IMG/VR virus record: IMGVR_UViG_3300009177_000094
Location: 1 to 29,482 of that record
DNA from: a virus
DNA length: 29,482 nt
Strand: one strand, 5' to 3'
Within the stretch, counting starts at the first letter, position 1, and each line of letters begins with the position of its first letter. Shown piece by piece: positions 3,989 to 29,482 of the stretch. Below the pieces are notes generated by a model. That model searched no databases. It had not been told where the DNA came from and saw only the letters and a program-made list of their open reading frames with translations. A program made the position numbers and the translations under genes.

Positions 3989-4170
3989 GTGCGGGGGTCG
4001 GCCTGGAGCCCTACGGTCGTACCGTTCCTCGATGGTGCTGGGGACCTTGCGAGTCGTACCAGAACCCCCTCTCTGGGAATTTCATGCTCTCGGCGCACGT
4101 CGCAGTCGGCGCAGACATCCCACGCGCCAAAGCGTTTCCACCGGTGCTCGTGATCAAATCTTTCGCTCAC
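3985..4170 (-). CDS. Small Cys/His-rich protein upstream of TerL
   Basis: A 61-residue protein with a GTG start at 4170, preceded at a suitable distance by a purine-rich AAGGGC. It overlaps the 3' end of the KTSC gene by 17 bases and its stop overlaps the TerL start as ATGA, which supports real translation. The first half carries a His/Cys cluster (HEH, then CADC, then REHE) that could bind one zinc ion; the second half is Arg/Pro-rich and probably disordered. Position just before TerL would suit a small terminase subunit or packaging accessory, but the length and sequence do not show a recognisable TerS helix-turn-helix, so no function is assigned. Confidence 0.6.
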   Translation of the reverse strand: MSERFDHEHRWKRFGAWDVCADCDVRREHEIPREGVLVRLARSPAPSRNGTTVGLQADPRT

Positions 4171-4429
4171 CGAATCGGCCCTTCAGTTGCCGATGCAGAT
4201 AGGAGCCTGGGCTTTCGGCGCCCTTCAGCCCATGGAAGTGCTCTTCGTCCACGCCGGGATACTCCCATGTGCCGCCCGAGCGGAAGGTGACATGTAGCTT
4301 CCGCGTGCTCGGATCGTAGGCCGCGTGCTCGATATTGCCGCTGTGATCCTGTTCGAACGTGTGGCGCAGCATTACGAACTCCCGGTGTATCCAATTAACG
4401 ACGCCGGCGCCGCCGACAGCCAAAGGCAT
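4154..4429 (-). CDS. KTSC-domain protein
   Basis: A 91-residue protein whose residues about 35-88 match the small KTSC domain pattern: a Tyr-Asp-Pro entry (AAYDPSTRKL), a strand ending in FRSGGTWEYPGV, a helix with HFHGLKGAESPGSYLH, and a basic end (RQLKGRF). KTSC domains occur in phage and bacterial proteins and beside some lysyl-tRNA synthetases; their molecular role is not settled, and binding to nucleic acid or protein is the usual suggestion. The ATG at 4429 shares one base with the previous stop (TGATG). An internal ATG at residue 20 is an alternative start, because the first 19 residues look weakly hydrophobic and unlike the domain. Confidence 0.75.
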   Translation of the reverse strand: MPLAVGGAGVVNWIHREFVMLRHTFEQDHSGNIEHAAYDPSTRKLHVTFRSGGTWEYPGVDEEHFHGLKGAESPGSYLHRQLKGRFGERKI

Positions 4430-8509: not shown

Positions 8510-10140
8510 TCCTCACCCACCGCAACGACCGCTTTATCTGCTTCGCCAGCTACGACGAGCGGCACATCCCGAAGGGCGCCGGCTTCCGCTGGGACGGTGC
8601 CACCAAGTCCTGGCACACGCTGGACGCGGAGACGGCTGCCCGGCTCGATCAGTTCGCCGATGACCACGCATGGCCGAAGCTGGAGGCATACTTTCTCCAG
8701 CGCCGCGCCAGCATCGAGGACAGCCGCGCAGAGAAGGCCGTGGGCGAGCTTCCGTGTCCCTCGGGCCTCTCCTACCTGCCATACCAGCGCGCGGGCATAG
8801 CGTACGCGCTGAAGCGCTCTGCGGTGCTGATCGGCGACGAGCCGGGCCTCGGTAAAACTATCCAGGCGATCGGCATCGTCAACGCCACGGAATACAGCGG
8901 CGCCCCGAGGGTGCTCGTCGTATGCCCGGCAACGCTGCGGCTCAACTGGCGGTTCGAGTGGCGCAAATGGTGCATCCATCCGATCAAGCCTGTCGTCGTC
9001 ACCGATATCTGGCCGACGGCGCTGCGCGGCCTCGACCTGTTCGGCGAGGGTGTGGCTGCGATCATGTCCTACGAAGGCGCCGTGAAGTGGAAGCATCACA
9101 TCGACCGGCTGCAATGGTCCGCTATGATCTTGGACGAGGCGCACGCGCTGAAGAACCCCGCGACGAAGCGCACCAAGGCGATCTTCGGAAGCCACAAGGG
9201 CAAGAAGGAAGAATGGATTGAGCCGGTGAAGGCAGAACGCAAGATTGCGCTGACCGGGACGCCGATCGTCAACCGGCCTGGTGAACTCTGGCCGCTGATC
9301 AAATGCCTGGACCCGGTCGGCCTCGGCTCGAACAAGAAACATTTCGATGACCGGTACGTGTACTCGACCGGGAACATGCGCGAGTTGCACGACCGGATGC
9401 GCGCCACCTTCATGGTGCGCCGGCTGAAGGCGGACGTGCTGAAGGAACTCCCCGCCAAGCGCCGCCAAGTGATCCTGATCGAGCCCGCCGGCGCCGGTGC
9501 CCTGCTGGCGACGGAGAACGCGCTCATCGCCCGCAAGCGCGCCGAGCTCGCGAACCTGGAGCATGAGAACGCGGTGGAGAAGCTGCGCATGTGGCGCGGC
9601 GCGGCGATGCAGGAAATCTCCCGCATCCGCCATGAGACGGCGCTGGCCAAGGTGCCCTCGGTGATTGACCATGTGTTCGGCGTGCTGGACGAGACCGACA
9701 AGGTGATCGTGTTCCACCATCATCATGACGTCGGCGATCAACTTGCCGCGGCGCTGCCCGGCGTCGTGCGGCTGGATGGCCGCTGCACACCGGAGGAAAA
9801 GGACACGGCGGTACGGCGGTTCCAGACCGACCCCAAGGCCCGCGTGTTCCTTGGCAGTATCCGTGCGGCCGGCATGGGCATTACGCTCACCGCTGCGTCC
9901 ACGGTGGTCTTTTGCGAACTTGATTGGAGCCCGGCCAGCATGATCCAGGCCGAGGACCGCGCGCACCGGATCGGCCAGCCGGAAAGCGTCCTAGTCCAGC
10001 ACCTCGTGATCGACGGGAGCATTGACCAGCGGATGAGCAAAATCCTGATCGATAAGGCCGACATGATCGGGCAGATACTGGACGGCGAGATGCCCCAGGC
10101 TCTGAAGGCCAGCGTTCTCGATGACATGCTGAAGGGGTAA
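8506..10140 (+). CDS. SNF2-family DNA helicase/translocase
   Basis: A 544-residue superfamily 2 ATPase. The ATG at 8506 is chosen because it overlaps the previous stop (ATGA); a frame extension to 8461 lies inside the upstream gene. Motif I is GDEPGLGKT (residues 110-118), motif II DEAH (210-213), motif III LTGTP (249-253), and the second RecA domain holds RLDGRCTPEEK, GITLTAAS and motif VI QAEDRAHRIGQ (481-491), the SNF2 hallmark. An N-terminal domain of about 80 residues (HIPKGAGFRWDGATKSW) resembles the accessory region of SMARCAL1-like annealing helicases. It would translocate on double-stranded DNA and remodel forks or bound proteins during replication or repair. Confidence 0.92.
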   Translation: MILTHRNDRFICFASYDERHIPKGAGFRWDGATKSWHTLDAETAARLDQFADDHAWPKLEAYFLQRRASIEDSRAEKAVGELPCPSGLSYLPYQRAGIAYALKRSAVLIGDEPGLGKTIQAIGIVNATEYSGAPRVLVVCPATLRLNWRFEWRKWCIHPIKPVVVTDIWPTALRGLDLFGEGVAAIMSYEGAVKWKHHIDRLQWSAMILDEAHALKNPATKRTKAIFGSHKGKKEEWIEPVKAERKIALTGTPIVNRPGELWPLIKCLDPVGLGSNKKHFDDRYVYSTGNMRELHDRMRATFMVRRLKADVLKELPAKRRQVILIEPAGAGALLATENALIARKRAELANLEHENAVEKLRMWRGAAMQEISRIRHETALAKVPSVIDHVFGVLDETDKVIVFHHHHDVGDQLAAALPGVVRLDGRCTPEEKDTAVRRFQTDPKARVFLGSIRAAGMGITLTAASTVVFCELDWSPASMIQAEDRAHRIGQPESVLVQHLVIDGSIDQRMSKILIDKADMIGQILDGEMPQALKASVLDDMLKG

Positions 10141-10143
10141 ATA

Positions 10144-10302
10144 ATGGATAGGGTTGAGATGCCCGTTGAGTTAAGAAAAGCGATAGAAAAAACATTCTCC
10201 CTCGTGCTGCACGGCAAGGAAAGCCATAGGCGGGCGATGTGGGAAATCGAGGACATCTATGCCCAAACCCATGATCGGCTACGCCAGCCGAACAGGAACT
10301 AA
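10144..10302 (+). CDS. Small basic protein between helicase and dpdA-like gene
   Basis: A 52-residue frame starting with ATG at 10144, with AGGGG overlapping the helicase stop as ribosome site. It overlaps the next gene by 44 bases in another frame. The product is helical and charged (MPVELRKAIEKTFSLVLHG, then RRAMWEIEDIYAQTHDRL), and the AT-rich codons before the overlap are unlike the helicase. Spacing and ribosome site make it plausible; there is no family match. Confidence 0.5.
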   Translation: MDRVEMPVELRKAIEKTFSLVLHGKESHRRAMWEIEDIYAQTHDRLRQPNRN

Positions 10303-10921
10303 GAGAAACCTAAGGGCTCTTTTGGCTGCCGGTTGGGGGCTCCTCGTATCTCGTGCTGGCGTATGGCGTACCGAGGGATTCGCCAATTGGGTTGCCGATA
10401 ACGGCGCATGGGCCGACTTCCAAGCTGGCCGGGCGTTCGATGAAGACGCATTCGAGCGCTTCCTATCCTGGGTCGAACAGCAGCCCATACCACCGCGCTG
10501 GATCGTGCTACCGGATATCGTTGCCGGCGGTCTCGCTTCCTTGGAAATGTCGAAGCGCTACATGAACCGATGCCTATCGATCGCACCGATGGTGTTGATC
10601 GCCGTGCAGGACGGCATGACGCCGGAGGACTTGCGCCCGCTGGTTGGCCCGTCAGTTGGGATATTCTTGGGTGGTTCGACCGAGTGGAAGATCGCCACAA
10701 TGAAGATGTGGGGAGATTTCTGCGCTGAACTTGGGATTTACTATCATGTCGCCCGCGTCAACACGCGGAACCGCATGATGATGGCCCACGCTGCGGGAGC
10801 CGATTCTGTCGATGGATCATCGGCAACCAAGTATGCGGTCACGCTGCCGAAGCTGAACAACTGGCTCCGGCAGTCGGACCTGTTCGCCCCTACCAGCCCG
10901 CAGGCTCGGTCCAGTCCTTGA
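10259..10921 (+). CDS. dpdA: DpdA-like (TGT-related) 7-deazaguanine DNA base-exchange enzyme
   Basis: A 220-residue protein of the phage branch of the tRNA-guanine transglycosylase superfamily, which exchanges guanine in DNA for a 7-deazaguanine such as preQ0. Diagnostic blocks are DNGAW (residues 48-52), VLPDIVAGG (83-91), LIAVQDGMT (113-121), FLGGSTEWK (136-144), HVARVNTRNR (163-172) and GADSVDGSS (180-188). D86, D118 and D182/D185 are candidates for the catalytic and base-binding acids. The length matches the short phage DpdA forms, not full bacterial TGT (about 370 residues). GAGG lies seven bases before the ATG. No preQ0 synthesis genes are in view, so precursor would come from the host or from genes outside the window. 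Confidence 0.8.
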   Translation: MPKPMIGYASRTGTKRNLRALLAAGWGLLVSRAGVWRTEGFANWVADNGAWADFQAGRAFDEDAFERFLSWVEQQPIPPRWIVLPDIVAGGLASLEMSKRYMNRCLSIAPMVLIAVQDGMTPEDLRPLVGPSVGIFLGGSTEWKIATMKMWGDFCAELGIYYHVARVNTRNRMMMAHAAGADSVDGSSATKYAVTLPKLNNWLRQSDLFAPTSPQARSSP

Positions 10922-19823: not shown

Positions 19824-21134
19824 CTAATACTCTAAGCCCGTCGCGTAACCCCTCGATTGGATCATCGGCAATTGCTTCTTCAGCCTGGCCCCGATGTCCG
19901 TTCGATACATCGGGGAGTTGGGGACCTTCAAGGTCTTCAAAATGCGGTAGGCCATCGTCGTCGCCTGCCGCACCGAACCACCCGTTCCCGACGCCACCAG
20001 CACGTAGTCGCCGGCCGTCACGAGGCATGGCGAGGTTACTATTTTGCCGTCCTGGTCCTGCGGCGCCGTTCCCAACATCATCTCGCACGGGTGCACGTTC
20101 TCCATCAGCTTGGGCGTCAATCCGTACACCGGCACCCCGCACACCTCCTTGCGGCTGATGTGGGAAAAGGGAAAGTCGGGGATCGCCATCAACACGCCGG
20201 CCGCCGTCAGATCCATTTTCCAGGGCTTCAAGTCTTGCCCGTCTGCGAGCGCGGCCAGCCATTCTGCATGATCTCCGTCGATGAGCGCCTGCTGGATATT
20301 GTAGAGCGGCCATCCGAAGCGCATGGTGAACTCAAGGGGCCACGGATTGCCCGCATCGTCAATGATGCAGTTGATGTCAACGTAGCCGCAGGCCCCCATC
20401 TTCACCAGGGTTTCCTCGAACGGCTTCAGCACCTTGTCGGCCAGCTTGGATTGCTTCACCACCCGCAGGACGGTGCCCATCTCTCCCGTCTGCATCCCGA
20501 GATCGCCGGGCATCATCTTCTTGAATTCCCAGTTCTCGCACCAGCCTTCGCTGAAGCCACCGGGGCCTATCCATCCGCCAACGGCCATCTCTACGCCGGT
20601 GACAAGTTCCTGCAGGATGAACTCCATCCGCTTCCCGGCCTTGTGCCATTTTTCCAGCATGAACACGAGGTCAGCCGGCGTCTTGGCGACATAGCTCATG
20701 TTCTTGTCGGGGCAGTCACCGATCGGCTTGCTGGCGAACGGGCGGTTTTCCTTCTTCACGTAGGCGATGGCATCGGGGTAATTCTTGAAGGTCTTGTAGG
20801 GCGGGATGTCAACGCCGTGCTTCTTGAACATCGCCATGCCGACGCCGCGGTCGATCTCCCAATCGGCTAGGTCCGTCGTGTGCCCGATGATCGGGACGCC
20901 GGCACGCTTCCATGGCTCAAGCTGGGCCATCCATTTTACATTGTCCGGCAGGAAGCAGAAATCGCACCATCTGATCCAATCACGCCAATCGCTCACGCGC
21001 TCGACCAGACCTTTGCCGATCAGCGCTGTCTTGGGATTGTCAGGGCAATAGACCTTGACCTCGTGCCCGTCGTCTAGGCAGCGCAGGTACCAGTCGAGGC
21101 TGAAATATCCTCCATCGATCGCCAGGATTCTCAT
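19824..21134 (-). CDS. PurD-like ATP-grasp ligase in the late operon
   Basis: A 436-residue ATP-grasp enzyme. The N-terminal part is a Rossmann-like pre-ATP-grasp domain (MRILAIDGGYFSLDWYL); the central domain has a nucleotide-binding lysine near FASKPIGD (K136), ILQELVTGVEMAVGG (173-187) and D253/N255 before the metal-binding segment LEFTMRFGWP (267-276), which matches the E-x-N-x-R-F-G-D-P block of PurD (phosphoribosylamine-glycine ligase) with Thr and Trp replacing Asn and Asp. It would join a carboxylate to an amine via an acyl phosphate. The ATG overlaps the ejection-protein stop (ATGA). Lying in a structural operon, it may ligate a small molecule or peptide onto a virion or host component and not serve purine synthesis. 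Confidence 0.75.
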   Translation of the reverse strand: MRILAIDGGYFSLDWYLRCLDDGHEVKVYCPDNPKTALIGKGLVERVSDWRDWIRWCDFCFLPDNVKWMAQLEPWKRAGVPIIGHTTDLADWEIDRGVGMAMFKKHGVDIPPYKTFKNYPDAIAYVKKENRPFASKPIGDCPDKNMSYVAKTPADLVFMLEKWHKAGKRMEFILQELVTGVEMAVGGWIGPGGFSEGWCENWEFKKMMPGDLGMQTGEMGTVLRVVKQSKLADKVLKPFEETLVKMGACGYVDINCIIDDAGNPWPLEFTMRFGWPLYNIQQALIDGDHAEWLAALADGQDLKPWKMDLTAAGVLMAIPDFPFSHISRKEVCGVPVYGLTPKLMENVHPCEMMLGTAPQDQDGKIVTSPCLVTAGDYVLVASGTGGSVRQATTMAYRILKTLKVPNSPMYRTDIGARLKKQLPMIQSRGYATGLEY

Positions 21135-24088: not shown

Positions 24089-25045
24089 TCAGCCTCCCCA
24101 AGCCGGCACGGCGCCGGGGTCCTGATACTGCGTGATCGGCTGGTACTGGAGCGTGCTGCCGTACGTCCCGCCGCTCACCGGCTGTGGACCGCCGAACAGC
24201 TGCTGGCCGTAGCCCGAGAGCGCCGACAGCCCCGCGCCGAGGTTCTGGCCGTTCACCTGTGCCTGGTTGAACCCGGCCTGCTGCCCTGCCTGACCGATCT
24301 GGAGATAGTTGCCGGCCGCCGTGGACTGGTTCCCATACAGGCCCGAGGACGTGCCAAGCGCGCCGAGGCCCGCGTTCTGAATGCCGTTATAGGTGCTGTA
24401 CGGCAGGGACGAGCCGGTAAGCCATGCCTGCGCGCCAGCACTGCCGAGGTTGCCCGCCGCCGAATAGGCGTTTCCGCCCTGACCCAGATACTGGCCGTAC
24501 GACTGCAATCCGGACTGCTCACGCGCAAGCTGGTTGTTGCGCCAGTCGATGTTGAAGTTGCCCAGCGTCTGGCCGAGGACGCCGGCACCGTAGGGGGAGT
24601 TACCGACGCCCGTGGCCGACAGCCCGGCCAGGGTCTGGTCGCGCGTCTGCTGCAGCGTCCGGTTATAGAGCGCGTTCTGTGGATCGAACGCCGTGCGGAG
24701 TTCATCGCCCGCCGCCGCAAATCCCCTGTTCGCCTGCCGGCCGAGGTTCGTGGCATCATGCCGAAGCTGCGGCGAGAGCGTGTAATCGAGATAATGCCCG
24801 GCGCTTCTCGCGCCCTGCATGGTCTGCGTCTCGTACGGGTTATTGATGATCCTGCCGGCGAGGTTCGCGCCCGACCCGGCGTTCCGGCCGAGACCCGCGA
24901 TGGCGCTCTGATCGGCGGTGTCGGCCCCGGCTTGGTTGGTCGGGATGTAGGCCGAGCCGCCCTGACCGTTCCCGCCCGCCATGTTTGAGATGGAACTCGC
25001 CGTGCTGGCAACGGCAGCGATGGCGCCAACATAGGCAAAAGGCAT
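24089..25045 (-). CDS. Small ejection-type virion protein (Gly/Gln/Ala-rich)
   Basis: A 318-residue protein. The ATG at 25045 is preferred over one at 25072 because GGAG lies seven bases before it. The N-terminus is a short hydrophobic helix (AYVGAIAAVASTASSIS), typical of the small podovirus ejection proteins (P22 gp7 or T7 gp14 type). The remainder is rich in Gly, Gln, Asn, Ala and Tyr (LGQGGNAYSAAGNLGSAG, and similar), a flexible sequence compatible with passing through the tail. Its upstream neighbour is the AspH-type hydroxylase. Confidence 0.7.
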   Translation of the reverse strand: MPFAYVGAIAAVASTASSISNMAGGNGQGGSAYIPTNQAGADTADQSAIAGLGRNAGSGANLAGRIINNPYETQTMQGARSAGHYLDYTLSPQLRHDATNLGRQANRGFAAAGDELRTAFDPQNALYNRTLQQTRDQTLAGLSATGVGNSPYGAGVLGQTLGNFNIDWRNNQLAREQSGLQSYGQYLGQGGNAYSAAGNLGSAGAQAWLTGSSLPYSTYNGIQNAGLGALGTSSGLYGNQSTAAGNYLQIGQAGQQAGFNQAQVNGQNLGAGLSALSGYGQQLFGGPQPVSGGTYGSTLQYQPITQYQDPGAVPAWGG

Positions 25046-25058
25046 GTGCGCTCTCCAG

Positions 25059-25616
25059 CTAAGGGAGGTCACCCTCGGTGCGGCAACACAAGATCAAAGT
25101 CACCCGCTCGGTGTCCCCATCATTATGAACACTATGTACCCGCAAATTGTCGAACGTCCAAGCTTCTCCTGGGCGCATGTGCACCCGGTCATGCTCGCAC
25201 TGATTCCAGCAATCGGGGTTGTTGACGATCGGCAGGTAGATTTTGCAATTGTGGAACTCGGCGTGCCATGAGCCCCGGTCATCATGCGGCAGTATCTGCC
25301 CGCCGGGCGGAATGCGCGTGATCAGGATCGCGCCCAGGTGCGTAGCCTCGACCAGCCGCATCAGGTCGAACACGATCGGCTTCAGCGCCGGCAGCGCATA
25401 CCAAGCCGGGTAGAACTCGCCCCAATGCGGCTCCCGGTAGTTCTTCGGCTCCATCAGCTCGCCGAGCGGGCGGTAGCGAACCCAGATATCCGTCATCTCG
25501 GCATGGACGCCCGAGCGGCGCTGCGGGTTGGCATTCCACAGTTCGGGCGAGCGCTCGAGCTGGTCGCGCAGCGGGCGGATATCGATCCCGCTCTTGAGCA
25601 GGGTGAAGTTTTTCAC
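25059..25616 (-). CDS. Aspartyl/asparaginyl beta-hydroxylase-type 2-oxoglutarate oxygenase
   Basis: A 185-residue Fe(II)/2-oxoglutarate dioxygenase of the AspH class. Starts at GTG in a GTGA overlap with the sulfotransferase stop. The iron-binding H-x-D is in PPGGQILPHDD (H111, D113), the distal His in FDNLRVHSVHN (H161, H164 alternative) and the 2-oxoglutarate Arg in DTERVTLI (R171), all within the usual AspH spacing. The first 80 residues are a variable cap. Members hydroxylate Asp/Asn side chains in proteins, and some act on small molecules. Here the target may be a virion protein, as the gene stands between tail and ejection genes. Confidence 0.85.
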   Translation of the reverse strand: MKNFTLLKSGIDIRPLRDQLERSPELWNANPQRRSGVHAEMTDIWVRYRPLGELMEPKNYREPHWGEFYPAWYALPALKPIVFDLMRLVEATHLGAILITRIPPGGQILPHDDRGSWHAEFHNCKIYLPIVNNPDCWNQCEHDRVHMRPGEAWTFDNLRVHSVHNDGDTERVTLILCCRTEGDLP

Positions 25617-26161
25617 AGCGCCATCCCATACATGGCCCGCAGCCCGGCCATGTTCTTCGTCCCGGCGTCGATCACCGATTTGGCGTCGGTCTGCACGTTC
25701 ACGCCGCTCCAGAGGTCCCACCAAGGCATTGTCAAAGCATTGCCGAGACAATGCCGAAACAACCAATCGTAGGTCTCGAAGTCGTTCAGCTCCTCGAACC
25801 GGACCACGATGGCATGACGCAGCCAGGAGGCCCGTTCCAGCGCGGCGGCAAGGTGGTCGAGGAAGGGGCTGGTCATCGGGAAGCCGATCCGCGCCATGCT
25901 GGCCCGCACATCCTCTGTCTTGCGCCTAACGATCACCATGCGCGTCCGTGGGAGGCTTGCGGCGATGTCCTCGGCACGGAGGCCCAGCATGGTATCGGAC
26001 AGCCCCACACCAGCCCGCAGCGTCTCCAGCACCTCTTCGAAGCTGGTCATGGTGGCGGTGCCCTCATGCCGGCACTCGCGCCCGCCGTAGGACAGGAAGT
26101 TCGCCAGCCAGGCGGTTCGGCTCCGGGGCAGGCCGAGGACGCAGAACGGGTTATTCGGCAT
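25613..26161 (-). CDS. Sulfotransferase-like P-loop protein
   Basis: A 182-residue protein of the PAPS-dependent sulfotransferase fold. The PAPS 5'-phosphosulfate loop is LPRSRTAWL (residues 11-19), with the usual following helix, and the 3'-phosphate segment is RMVIVRRKTEDVRASM (74-89), where R79/R80 and S88 are candidate contacts. It is shorter than cellular enzymes (typically 250-350 residues), so the acceptor-binding part is small. The ATG at 26161 overlaps the previous gene by 11 bases. The acceptor is unknown; candidates are hydroxylated residues made by the neighbouring oxygenase, or surface sugars. Confidence 0.8.
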   Translation of the reverse strand: MPNNPFCVLGLPRSRTAWLANFLSYGGRECRHEGTATMTSFEEVLETLRAGVGLSDTMLGLRAEDIAASLPRTRMVIVRRKTEDVRASMARIGFPMTSPFLDHLAAALERASWLRHAIVVRFEELNDFETYDWLFRHCLGNALTMPWWDLWSGVNVQTDAKSVIDAGTKNMAGLRAMYGMAL

Positions 26162-26621
26162 CGACCGGAACCACATCCACGACCAGGTGTATCCGGTCGT
26201 TCATGCCGAGGTTGATCTCGCTGTGCAGCATCCGGTGATTGAGCAGCACAAGCTGGCCGACCGGCGCCACCATCGCATCGCCGCCGCAGTAGAGCCAAGC
26301 GGCCGGAGATGGGACGAGGCACACATGCACACGCACCATCTGCTCCGTCTCGACGCTCTTTTCCTCCTGCCAGGGCGTGAAGCCACCCGGTGGCAAGGAG
26401 ACGATCTCGGCGCGGCGGATGAGGCAGTCGCGGTCACCGCCGACCAGCCGCTTGATCCGGTTCAGCAGGTTCTTCGCCGACTTGAACTTGTCCAGGATCG
26501 GGCGGTCGCCGTCGCCGTCGCGCAGCATGATCGAGCCGCCCATGAAACTGTCGCGGTGCCTGACCAGCAGGTTGGCGGTCATCATCGACACGTCGATGAA
26601 GCCGAGGGAGCGGAGGCTCAT
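26151..26621 (-). CDS. AspH-like oxygenase homologue with degenerate iron site
   Basis: A 156-residue protein sharing the AspH core with its neighbour: LPPGGFTPW (residues 76-84), VRVHVCLVPS (96-105) and HSEINLGMNDRIHLVVD (133-149). In the position of the iron-binding H-x-D it has W84-Q-E86, so the first His is missing and Asp is replaced by Glu, while the distal His (H133) and the 2-oxoglutarate Arg (R143) remain. It may be inactive, a regulatory partner of the active hydroxylase, or use a changed metal site. It ends where the sulfotransferase begins (11-base overlap) and starts just after the GH76-like gene. Confidence 0.7.
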   Translation of the reverse strand: MSLRSLGFIDVSMMTANLLVRHRDSFMGGSIMLRDGDGDRPILDKFKSAKNLLNRIKRLVGGDRDCLIRRAEIVSLPPGGFTPWQEEKSVETEQMVRVHVCLVPSPAAWLYCGGDAMVAPVGQLVLLNHRMLHSEINLGMNDRIHLVVDVVPVDAE

Positions 26622-26624
26622 TTG

Positions 26625-27926
26625 TCAGTGCAACGAGGCATAGTAGCCTGCCTGGATCAGGTTGGCGCCCTGCGCCGAGACCATCTCAACCAAGTTCACG
26701 TTGTTCGGCGACTGGTTGTTGTACCAGACGCCTTGGCACGGGCCCTGCCAGTCGCCGCCATAGCTGAAATACTGGCATGTGTCGTTGTTCACGACCGAGT
26801 TGGCCGTATTCACCAGCGTGGTCTTGTCGGCCTGAGTGCCCGCCGGCCCAGTCAGCAGCGGAACAACCTCGTTCGCGTAATAATACGCCGCGAAAGCGTT
26901 GTCGAAGGCATCCCTGTCGTCCAGTAGGATGTTGCCGGAGACCGTCTCACGGGTCTTTATCCCGGTCGCCGTCAGGTTCATGCGGGTGAGATAGGCGAGC
27001 GTCCCGGTCTCGTTGTATAGACGGGCCTCCAGAACCGCGAACGCCATATTGCCCTCCAGCAGCGTCACGCTCCCGGCCAGGGCGATGGAATTGGGCGTCG
27101 CGCAGTTCTGCGAGACGCCGTACGTGTTCGCGCCGTTCACCTGAGTATCGATCCAGAGCAGGCCATCGACAGGGTAGCTTGTGACCGCAGGGTTTGAGCA
27201 TCCCGTAATCGTCTGGCCGTTGCGGAACAGCGCGTTGACCATCCAGGATTCCAGAGAGAGCGCCCGCGTGTGATAGGTCGCGTCTGCCGTGTCTTGCCAA
27301 TACTGGTAGGTCGCGAGAGCGTATTGCGCCTGATAACTCGCCTTTGTGGTCCTAGTGTCGTCGTACCAAAGGCCGCCACCCAATGTGCTGTCCTGCCAGC
27401 GCGTCCAGGCGCAATCGAGGATTGCCTGGGCGTACTGCCGGGCAACATCGTCACCGGTCGCCTCATATAACTCTATGATCCCGCTTGCTCCCCATGCGGC
27501 ATCATCCTGTGCGGTGCTGACCGTATTGGCGACGGCCCCACAGGTCTGCATGTTGCCCAGCGTGTAGGTGGCCTTAATGAATGCCCATGTGGCCGTCAGG
27601 CGCGAGAGCGCGTCGGATGAGCCAGTGACCTTCCAATACGAGTAGGTGACATTGATCGACTGAGCGAAGCTCCAAAGGTTGAACTTGTGGAAGGTCTGTT
27701 GCGACAGCGGCTGGATCAGCGCGCCGCTGCCGTTCAGATTGATCAGGTTGTAATTGCCGCTGGTCAGGTTACCGAAATAGAAAAGGCTGTTCGTGTTGCG
27801 GTAAGCCGCCGTGGCCGAGGTCGCAAGCGATGGGATCGCGTTGCCGTTGCTTCGGCCGCCGATCTGAGCCTGTGCTGAAACGGCACCGAGCAGAAAAAGC
27901 AGCGCTATGCCAAGCCTGCGGATCAC
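26625..27926 (-). CDS. Exported GH76-like glycoside hydrolase (tail depolymerase candidate)
   Basis: A 433-residue protein with a GTG start in a GTGA overlap. A signal peptide is clear: basic MIRRLG, hydrophobic IALLFLLGAVS, cleavage after AQA near residue 20. The mature part looks like an alpha/alpha barrel of the GH76 (alpha-1,6-mannanase) type: the catalytic Asp pair lies in AQDDAAWGASGI (D141, D142), and GGGLWYDD (183-190) is the matching substrate loop. It probably cuts a host surface polysaccharide. A secretion signal on a tail-region protein is unusual for a phage. Confidence 0.75.
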   Translation of the reverse strand: MIRRLGIALLFLLGAVSAQAQIGGRSNGNAIPSLATSATAAYRNTNSLFYFGNLTSGNYNLINLNGSGALIQPLSQQTFHKFNLWSFAQSINVTYSYWKVTGSSDALSRLTATWAFIKATYTLGNMQTCGAVANTVSTAQDDAAWGASGIIELYEATGDDVARQYAQAILDCAWTRWQDSTLGGGLWYDDTRTTKASYQAQYALATYQYWQDTADATYHTRALSLESWMVNALFRNGQTITGCSNPAVTSYPVDGLLWIDTQVNGANTYGVSQNCATPNSIALAGSVTLLEGNMAFAVLEARLYNETGTLAYLTRMNLTATGIKTRETVSGNILLDDRDAFDNAFAAYYYANEVVPLLTGPAGTQADKTTLVNTANSVVNNDTCQYFSYGGDWQGPCQGVWYNNQSPNNVNLVEMVSAQGANLIQAGYYASLH

Positions 27927-29083
27927 TGGACCACGCGGACGTTATAGGTTACCGAGGCCGGCGTGACCGCGACAATCGCGCAGACCCGAACAGTTACCGT
28001 GTCATTTGACGAAACGAAGGCATAGAAAGCGATTCCGGTCGAGAGGACGCTATCCGGGTCTGCCGACGGCGACGCCGTTGCAACCATTGTGGAGCGCGCT
28101 CCTGTCACAGTAGCGGTTCCTGCCGCACAAGCGCCCGGCGTCAACGCGCCGCCGCCGATTGCTGAGGTCGTGCCGATCAGAATCGGGAGGTCGCCGGCAG
28201 GGCACGTGCTCGTGAGGTTCTTGCTCGCGTCGGTGCAGACCGGAAGGGAGGCAGTCAGGTTCGGGACGTTAAGGTTCTGCGAACTATCGATTGTCAATGC
28301 GTTCGTTAGAGTGCCTGAAGCATTGGCGGTGAGAAATTTTATCCGTCCAGGGACGATTCCCGAACTCACCGCCGCATCGACTTCGCCACGGATTAGCGAG
28401 CTATCCTGAAAGTTGGTGCCGTCGCTGCCCTCAATATAGACACCGCCGAGTTGTGTTCCCGAGGCTACAGCGGTCTGATTGCCGAACGTATTATTGTTGC
28501 TTTGCGCAAGATACAGGGCCGCAGGAAAGGTGGTCGCCGCCCTATACGAAAAATCGACGATGGCCCCGGTGCCGCTGCCATTTCCCTGAACTTGGAAGGG
28601 TGGCGTCGCCCCGCCGTTCGAGACGGTCCTGTTGTTAAGGCTGTTGCCTACAACGAAGGTCGAGCCGACCAGAGAAAATGCCGTTGTGCCGGCCTGAGAG
28701 AATCCAAGCGTGCCGCCCGATTTGAAGAACCCGGTGTTGCTAGAAGCAATGGCAACCGCTGGTGTGGAGACACTGCCACTGGCATCGCTGGAGAGAAACA
28801 CGGTTCCCGTTGTGGTAAGCCCAGCAGCCGTTATCGTGCCGCTGTCGGTCAGGCCGCTTGTCGTGGGGCTCGCCGACAGGACCGCCGTGCCGGTTCCGGT
28901 CGTGCCGGTGACCGTCGTTCCCTGTATCTTGCCGAGGGTCGGGTTCGGATAGGTGCCCGATAGGTCGCCGCCGGCCGTCGAGCCCGAGGCAAGGCCAGGC
29001 CCCGCGCTGATGCTCGGGTCAGCGGCAAGCGCGCTGGTGCTAGCGATGGCGAGAGCGAGTGCCGCGGCGAGGATGCGGCTCAT
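27923..29083 (-). CDS. Tail-fibre-like protein with N-terminal signal peptide
   Basis: A 386-residue protein whose ATG at 29083 overlaps the previous stop (ATGA). It begins with a signal peptide-like segment (MSRILAAALALAIASTSALA, cut after residue 20), then LSGTYPNPTLGKIQG, a phrase typical of phage tail-fibre and tail-collar proteins, and long Gly/Thr/Ser-rich beta repeats (TTTGTVFLSSDASGSVSTP, SNTGFFKSGGTLGFSQ). The C-terminus is a compact beta domain with several Cys. Receptor binding is the likely role. Like the following GH76-like protein it is predicted to be exported. Confidence 0.7.
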   Translation of the reverse strand: MSRILAAALALAIASTSALAADPSISAGPGLASGSTAGGDLSGTYPNPTLGKIQGTTVTGTTGTGTAVLSASPTTSGLTDSGTITAAGLTTTGTVFLSSDASGSVSTPAVAIASSNTGFFKSGGTLGFSQAGTTAFSLVGSTFVVGNSLNNRTVSNGGATPPFQVQGNGSGTGAIVDFSYRAATTFPAALYLAQSNNNTFGNQTAVASGTQLGGVYIEGSDGTNFQDSSLIRGEVDAAVSSGIVPGRIKFLTANASGTLTNALTIDSSQNLNVPNLTASLPVCTDASKNLTSTCPAGDLPILIGTTSAIGGGALTPGACAAGTATVTGARSTMVATASPSADPDSVLSTGIAFYAFVSSNDTVTVRVCAIVAVTPASVTYNVRVVQ

Positions 29084-29482
29084 TTGTAGTAATCCACGCC
29101 GACCGTGCACGATCCGCCGCCGCTCGGCAGGATGAACTGGATTGTCGAGATATTGGGGTTGTTCACATAGACCTGACCCGAGGCCAGCCCGACGATATCG
29201 CCGGCAACCGGGACGGTCCCGTCATCGCGGAAGTTAGCGCAGTTTCCGTTCGTTCCGTTCACGCCGTTGAAGAAGATATCGGCGAATTTCGCCGTGGCTG
29301 GAACTGTCAGGGACTGGGCCGTTCCGCTCACGGTCAGGTTCTGCCGAGATGCCACCGGAGTGCGCAGGTAGGTACCGCCGCCGGGGCCCGGCTTGGTCAG
29401 CAGGTTGCCGGCGGTATCCACCTGGAAGCGGGTCGATTGCTTGTCGCCCAGGCTCGGCGGCGTCGCGTTATAGGTGCCGCCG
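29080..29482 (-). CDS. Virion protein, 5' end cut by window edge
   Basis: The frame is open from the right edge and ends at 29080, giving 133 visible residues. It contains ATPPSLGDKQSTRFQVDTAG, a phrase common in small phage structural proteins, then a beta-rich domain with aromatic and Asn/Gly residues and Cys near the end (GNCANF, SCTVGVDYYK). Its stop overlaps the tail-fibre start (ATGA). A head-decoration or tail-surface protein is likely; the true start lies beyond the window (the internal GTG at 29421 is not needed). Confidence 0.55.
   Translation of the reverse strand, partial: GGTYNATPPSLGDKQSTRFQVDTAGNLLTKPGPGGGTYLRTPVASRQNLTVSGTAQSLTVPATAKFADIFFNGVNGTNGNCANFRDDGTVPVAGDIVGLASGQVYVNNPNISTIQFILPSGGGSCTVGVDYYK

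Follow-up and report, generated by a model that had tools for sequence, protein, structure and literature searches.

The window, that is, the whole stretch of DNA analysed here, is a record of 29,482 bases from a tailed virus of bacteria; according to the ORF list, Pfam and PHROG, a late operon that reads leftward occupies its right part. The operon runs from a tail fibre gene and a putative glycosidase gene through three genes that we call HydB, ST and HydA to three presumed ejection-module genes and an ATP-grasp gene (Table 1). A first-pass annotation had described two AspH-type proteins flanking a short PAPS sulfotransferase. We find all three minus-strand ORFs, with PF05118 matches for both flanking proteins and with motif and fold pointing to a sulfotransferase between them. 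The tight gene junctions that it described are also there. HydB begins 3 bases past the end of the upstream gene. The best ST start is the ATG at 26161 (182 aa, MPNNPF, the same in its relative), which overlaps the end of HydB by 11 bases; a 187-aa version starting at 26176 is less likely. The best HydA start is the GTG at 25616, within a longer ORF, where a 4-base overlap (GTGA) joins HydA to the stop of ST.

Table 1. Genes of the late operon around the HydB-ST-HydA trio (window positions).
Feature	Position	Strand	Basis
Tail-fibre-like protein	27923..29110	-	PHROG 18345, E 2e-7
Gene upstream of HydB, weak GH76-type glycosidase similarity, signal-peptide-like start	26625..27926	-	PDB profile matches
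HydB, putative pseudo-oxygenase, 156 aa, predicted 2OG oxygenase fold, Q-x-E for H-x-D	26151..26621	-	Pfam, model and fold search, motif, selection, relatives L003 and L105
ST, predicted minimal PAPS-type sulfotransferase, 182 aa	25613..26161	-	motifs, model (pLDDT 95.8), TPST match, relatives
HydA, predicted AspH-type 2OG-Fe(II) oxygenase, 185 aa, GTG start, full H-x-D...H and Arg	25059..25616	-	Pfam, alignments, relatives
Putative gp7-like ejection protein gene, directly 3' of HydA, candidate target of the enzymes	24089..25047	-	alignments; position as P22 gene 7
Two more presumed ejection-module genes, 534 and 456 aa	21131..24087	-	position only; same order kept in L003
PurD-like ATP-grasp ligase gene, operon end	19824..21134	-	family searches

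The same annotation placed the trio between tail genes (fibre, GH76) and ejection genes. The late-operon position stands, while the GH76 label is only suggestive, as the gene upstream of HydB has no Pfam match and its glycosidase-type matches in PDB reach only E 0.04 and 0.59. The gene directly 3' of HydA, preceded by GGAG, has no PHROG match and is a putative ejection protein gene from its position and the gene order in relatives; the 534- and 456-aa genes have no family matches in Pfam or PHROG. The PurD-like ATP-grasp gene (436 aa) that ends the ejection module scores far under the purD cut-off. It is found in 20 of the 32 HydA loci whose downstream sequence extends over at least 6.4 kb, and its ligase could add to the modifying enzymes of this operon. 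Elsewhere in the window, a short ORF at 4154-4429 resembles a KTSC-domain protein by eye. The reverse complement of 9521-10403, compared with L023 7840-8200 and 8564-8941, shows 95-97% identity between the window and a second viral record, that of L003; these stretches adjoin genes only about 70-80% identical, a sign of recent recombination.

HydA matches PF05118 with an E value of 2.7e-13 (50.5 bits against a cut-off of 22.6), and its catalytic set is all present: H111-x-D113 and H161 of the metal triad, and the 2OG arginine R171. Triad and arginine are conserved in 41 of 43 aligned rows, one of which is truncated; the two exceptions, at H-x-D, are the HydB rows. Judged by this sequence evidence, HydA is a complete AspH-type 2OG oxygenase. 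Its solved relatives, from a profile search of PDB, are AspH and proline hydroxylases, free-proline enzymes among them, and the match to the NCBIfam lipid A hydroxylase LpxO reaches 34 bits against a cut-off of 500. Relatives of HydA are encoded on at least 433 viral contigs and in only three records of the phage-record collection. Limnohabitans phage DC33 likewise carries an AspH-type beta-hydroxylase (PF05118), its ORF8, which was reported as a metabolic gene in a paper that describes neither a pre-ejection position nor partner genes (PMC12195039); in DC33 the hydroxylase gene precedes a GNAT gene. At NCBI, DC33 (PQ492659.1), a 39 kb double-stranded tailed phage, is listed among the Inoviridae, apparently a clerical error.

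ST falls under the Pfam cut-offs (Sulfotransfer_3, 15.1 vs 22.8 bits; Sulfotransfer_4, 13.8 vs 27 bits), and its profile found no match among PDB sequences. It has a 5'-phosphosulfate loop of PRSxT type; P12, R13, R15, T16, A17, W18 and H32 are invariant in all 63 relatives. R80 (kept in 59 of the 63) and S88 (in 56) stand eight residues apart, like the 3'-phosphate site of known sulfotransferases. The ST model (pLDDT 95.8) is closest to TPST1/2 (for TPST1, Foldseek 1.5e-5; Z 11.9, rmsd 3.3, 157 aligned), with which ST shares the PRS-type PAPS loop, although ST is far smaller, about 13% identical in the structural alignment, and cytoplasmic. Other sulfotransferases lie within 2 Z units of this best match. 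Because sugar (P-loop) kinases follow at Z 10.9, within 1 Z unit of TPST1, it is the PAPS motif and not the fold that decides the identity of ST. A kinase, nearly tied by fold alone, was rejected: the Walker A lysine is missing and the PAPS motifs are kept. Motif and modelled fold together identify ST as a minimal PAPS sulfotransferase.

Relatives of ST occur on at least 303 viral contigs, often fused to GNAT; many are about 355 aa long with a C-terminal GNAT domain (L119 4998-6059 is an example, and there are many similar loci). The GNAT-domain profile of these fusions also picks up a GNAT encoded on its own in phage PfAn1 (E 6e-19), which has HydA as well. ST relatives adjoin genes for tail collar/fibre proteins and the DNA-ejection gene phrog_598 (23 of the 110 neighbours that were scanned). 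Sulfotransferases (PF13469) are known from marine phages, where their function was called unclear (PMC10580990); the reports of them do not connect them with a hydroxylase, with a pseudo-oxygenase or with an ejection slot.

The L003 record is the only other sampled record with the full trio HydB-ST-HydA. HydB, ST and HydA are 94, 80 and 91% identical between it and the window, with dN/dS of 0.15, 0.36 and 0.09 and a synonymous excess at Fisher p of about 1e-6, 1e-5 and 4e-22, respectively (for HydB, 20 synonymous and 11 non-synonymous differences over 116 and 352 sites). This purifying selection rules out chance ORFs. A 79-aa ORF without a family match lies between ST and HydA in L003 (1151-1390) and is missing from the window. 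When we looked for co-conservation in relatives, this one close relative had the trio and the next, L105, two of its three genes: HydB-ST, then an ejection gene of the same kind as in the window, with no PF05118 match in the whole 43 kb record. ST and HydA without HydB were found in L004, L005, L036 and L177, and also in L110, where a fused ST-GNAT precedes HydA. ST thus adjoins HydA in seven records, including the window and L003, that are scattered over the ST tree, and the other 59 of the 66 rows of that tree have no HydA nearby. As L105 has HydB-ST without HydA and five records have ST-HydA without HydB, HydB accompanies ST, and ST can do without HydA. A fixed three-gene cassette is ruled out by the full trio being present in only two sampled records, and an obligate hydroxylation-sulfation cassette by the 59 rows and by L105. 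The trio had been presented as one unit, and this view fails on L105 and on the HydA genes, which mostly have a cupin in place of ST (below). The full trio is rare, and each of its parts belongs to a widespread, apparently undescribed arrangement.

HydB matches PF05118 at 22.7 bits, barely above the 22.6 cut-off. The first-pass annotation had read W-Q-E in place of H-x-D, which is shifted by one residue: the ungapped alignment sets L-P-H111-D-D113 of HydA opposite P-W-Q-E-E of HydB, so that H-x-D becomes Q-x-E (Q85-x-E87) with a Trp before it. The distal histidine H133 and the 2OG arginine R143 are retained, and a Gln/Glu/His metal site in HydB of the window is conceivable. Its model (pLDDT 84.7) has the double-stranded beta-helix fold of 2OG oxygenases, with 7v4m as best match (Z 15.3, rmsd 2.5, 138 aligned). 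The third copy, that of L105, is 54% identical and keeps the Trp and long invariant stretches; at the metal motif it has W-Y-Q-D, and the arginine is gone. Together with dN/dS, this third copy rules out a decaying gene. HydB has the pattern of a pseudo-enzyme, since it keeps its sequence and, in the model, its fold under selection without the metal motif. The annotation's view of HydB as a non-catalytic paralogue is strengthened by the L105 copy, because the 2OG arginine has been lost there as well.

Scans of viral contigs found no HydB copies beyond the L003 and L105 records. Among phage records, window HydB gave only a weak 30% match, to the DC33 hydroxylase, and L105 HydB gave none; among plasmids, HydB gave a weak 28% partial match. 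Vaccinia C16 (PDB 8ag3), a protein of an unrelated virus, has the 2OG oxygenase fold and is among the fold matches of HydB. C16 is not known to have a working metal site, and it binds the active host enzyme, whereas the probable partner of HydB, judged by gene linkage, is ST.

We then considered what occupies this place, directly before the ejection genes, in other viruses. The locus counts come from similarity-selected viral contigs (the best 80 per scan), and the slot and partner frequencies are therefore descriptive. Among the matches listed, 53 HydA loci were non-redundant at 95% identity and had adequate flanks; the partner of HydA was a cupin in 45, ST in five and GNAT in two, one locus had none, and no locus had two partners (Fisher p 5e-8, uncorrected for kinship). 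The usual order is HydA, a small metal cupin (Cupin_2, with H53, H55, H59 and H93 invariant) and an ejection-type gene. The cupin gene lies directly 3' of HydA in most relatives, as at L063 7561-7842 and 34 similar loci. One locus with HydA and cupin, L266, belongs to a candidate inducible prophage of Paraburkholderia phenoliruptrix LMG 22037. Counting gains or losses as label changes, the ST label needs four changes on the HydA tree, at least two of them forced by supported branches, and the HydA label needs four on the ST tree, at least three of them forced. The partner exclusivity fits a shared target; limited room in the operon could give the same pattern.

Anchoring on the window-type ejection gene, with the closer alignment set (A13) and not the diverse one (A9), gave 64 loci among the matches listed. 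These held HydA and cupin in 24 cases, GNAT in 22, other combinations of HydA, ST, cupin and GNAT in five, and none of the four in 13. Four of these 13 hold GNAT-like ORFs below profile detection (the one in L191, which has no Pfam match, was judged by its likeness to L195 and L204). That leaves about nine of the 64 loci with no such enzyme, which means that occupancy of the slot is optional. In the tree of ejection genes, those of the window, L003 and L105 group in one supported clade, beside a supported clade with GNATs, while HydA of the window is nearest to HydA of phages having a more distant ejection type. Since the two trees place the window differently, we conclude that enzyme modules are exchanged at the slot.

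The small genes of T7 gp13 (PF11090) and P22 gp14 (PF11039) take this place too, separating the tail genes from the first ejection gene. The two proteins differ in fold from HydA, HydB (PF05118) and ST and are not homologous to them, and as single sequences they gave no match to the phage GNAT profile built here. Pfam labels T7 gp13 a probable scaffold protein and P22 gp14 DUF2824. In Cobavirus a GNAT beside the internal virion proteins has been likened to T7 gp13 (PMC6775973). We found no paper on phage or virion sulfation in the open-access literature, which is weak evidence, and no description there of the slot as such, of the HydA partner exclusivity or of a HydB-ST pair.

The gene identities (from sequence and fold), the position, the purifying selection, the HydB-ST and ST-HydA linkage and the exclusivity of HydA partners are established. 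The enzymatic activities, a protein substrate and the role of HydB we infer from them as follows. The trio would fill a slot directly before the ejection genes in short-tailed phages, where small enzymes co-expressed with the virion genes are the usual occupants. HydA would most likely hydroxylate, and ST most likely sulfate, residues in a protein of the virion, either ahead of assembly or in its course, and these modifications would be alternatives to those made by HydA with cupin or by a GNAT acyltransferase. The likeliest target would be the gp7-like ejection protein encoded next, with a tail protein second. HydB would work with ST as a pseudo-oxygenase, probably by positioning the target or the enzyme. 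We give a probability of roughly 0.45 to this reading, in which late slot enzymes modify an ejection or tail protein and HydB is a non-catalytic partner of ST. A point against a protein target is that the relatives of HydA include free-proline enzymes and, far below cut-off, lipid A enzymes. Four Tyr of the ejection protein seemed specific to the ST clade, and showed no enrichment over other residues.

The first-pass annotation had gone further and proposed hydroxylation followed by sulfation of the new hydroxyl. The five further records in which ST adjoins HydA agree with a connection between the two genes; sulfation by ST of the hydroxyl that HydA introduces is not supported as stated, given the 59 of 66 ST rows without HydA. 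A wider version would have HydA hydroxylating a virion residue and ST sulfating it, with cupin or GNAT processing the same hydroxyl differently elsewhere. The scatter of ST-HydA adjacency over the ST tree speaks for this, and the exclusivity of cupin, ST and GNAT as companions of HydA fits alternative second steps, but besides the ST rows there is L105, with HydB-ST and no PF05118 match at all, and GNAT, whether fused to ST or alone, works without HydA. We regard such a two-step scheme as unlikely; sequential action is compatible with our preferred reading and not needed by it, because ST is usually found without HydA. Late in infection the enzymes could instead modify a host molecule, be it lipid A, a glycan of the cell surface or some small molecule, for instance to keep progeny from re-adsorbing to debris or to block competitors. 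The distant LpxO match, the free-proline hydroxylases among the nearest solved relatives of HydA and the possible glycosidase upstream of HydB would suit this, yet the genes sit tightly inside a virion operon beside ejection genes across very different phages, and by fold ST comes closest to protein sulfotransferases, albeit with other sulfotransferases close behind. We consider a host target improbable.

Equally improbable in our estimation is that the slot proteins chiefly chaperone or scaffold the assembly of the ejection protein, with catalysis secondary and the enzymatic folds a matter of convenience. The Pfam name of T7 gp13, the selection on the fold and sequence of HydB without its metal motif and the replacement of one fold by unrelated ones in the slot all point that way; however, a pure scaffold needs no catalytic residues, and those of HydA and ST, like the metal ligands of the cupin, are almost invariably conserved. 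That the genes are passengers, the slot being a tolerant insertion site for mobile single genes with no common function, would account for the repeated changes of gene content and for the genomes with nothing in the slot. It is very unlikely in the face of the strong purifying selection on the trio, the catalytic residues, conserved almost completely in hundreds of contigs, and the finding of one partner per HydA and not random mixtures.

Our preferred reading, modification of an ejection or tail protein by enzymes of the slot, can be extended to a more specific form: short-tailed phages would finish this protein interchangeably by GNAT acylation, by hydroxylation plus cupin or by sulfation, and the present phage would couple hydroxylation to sulfation, with a pseudo-oxygenase targeting ST. 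We hold this extended form to be rather unlikely. If true, it would mean that a virion protein of a phage is sulfated and that a pseudo-oxygenase pairs with a sulfotransferase; we found no description of either. A pseudo-oxygenase that travels with a sulfotransferase is a further point of interest.

Ejection proteins exit the capsid and reassemble into a channel that spans the cell envelope. To our knowledge, the small proteins encoded just before the ejection genes, such as T7 gp13 and P22 gp14, have no settled chemistry. A recurrent slot in which intact genes for acyltransferase, oxygenase, cupin and sulfotransferase interchange would give them a testable reason, the covalent finishing of the ejection machinery, and would offer a role for the phage sulfotransferases whose function was called unclear (PMC10580990). 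With other small enzymes at this spot in related viruses, the slot suggests that phages of this kind complete their injection machinery chemically, by means that can replace one another.
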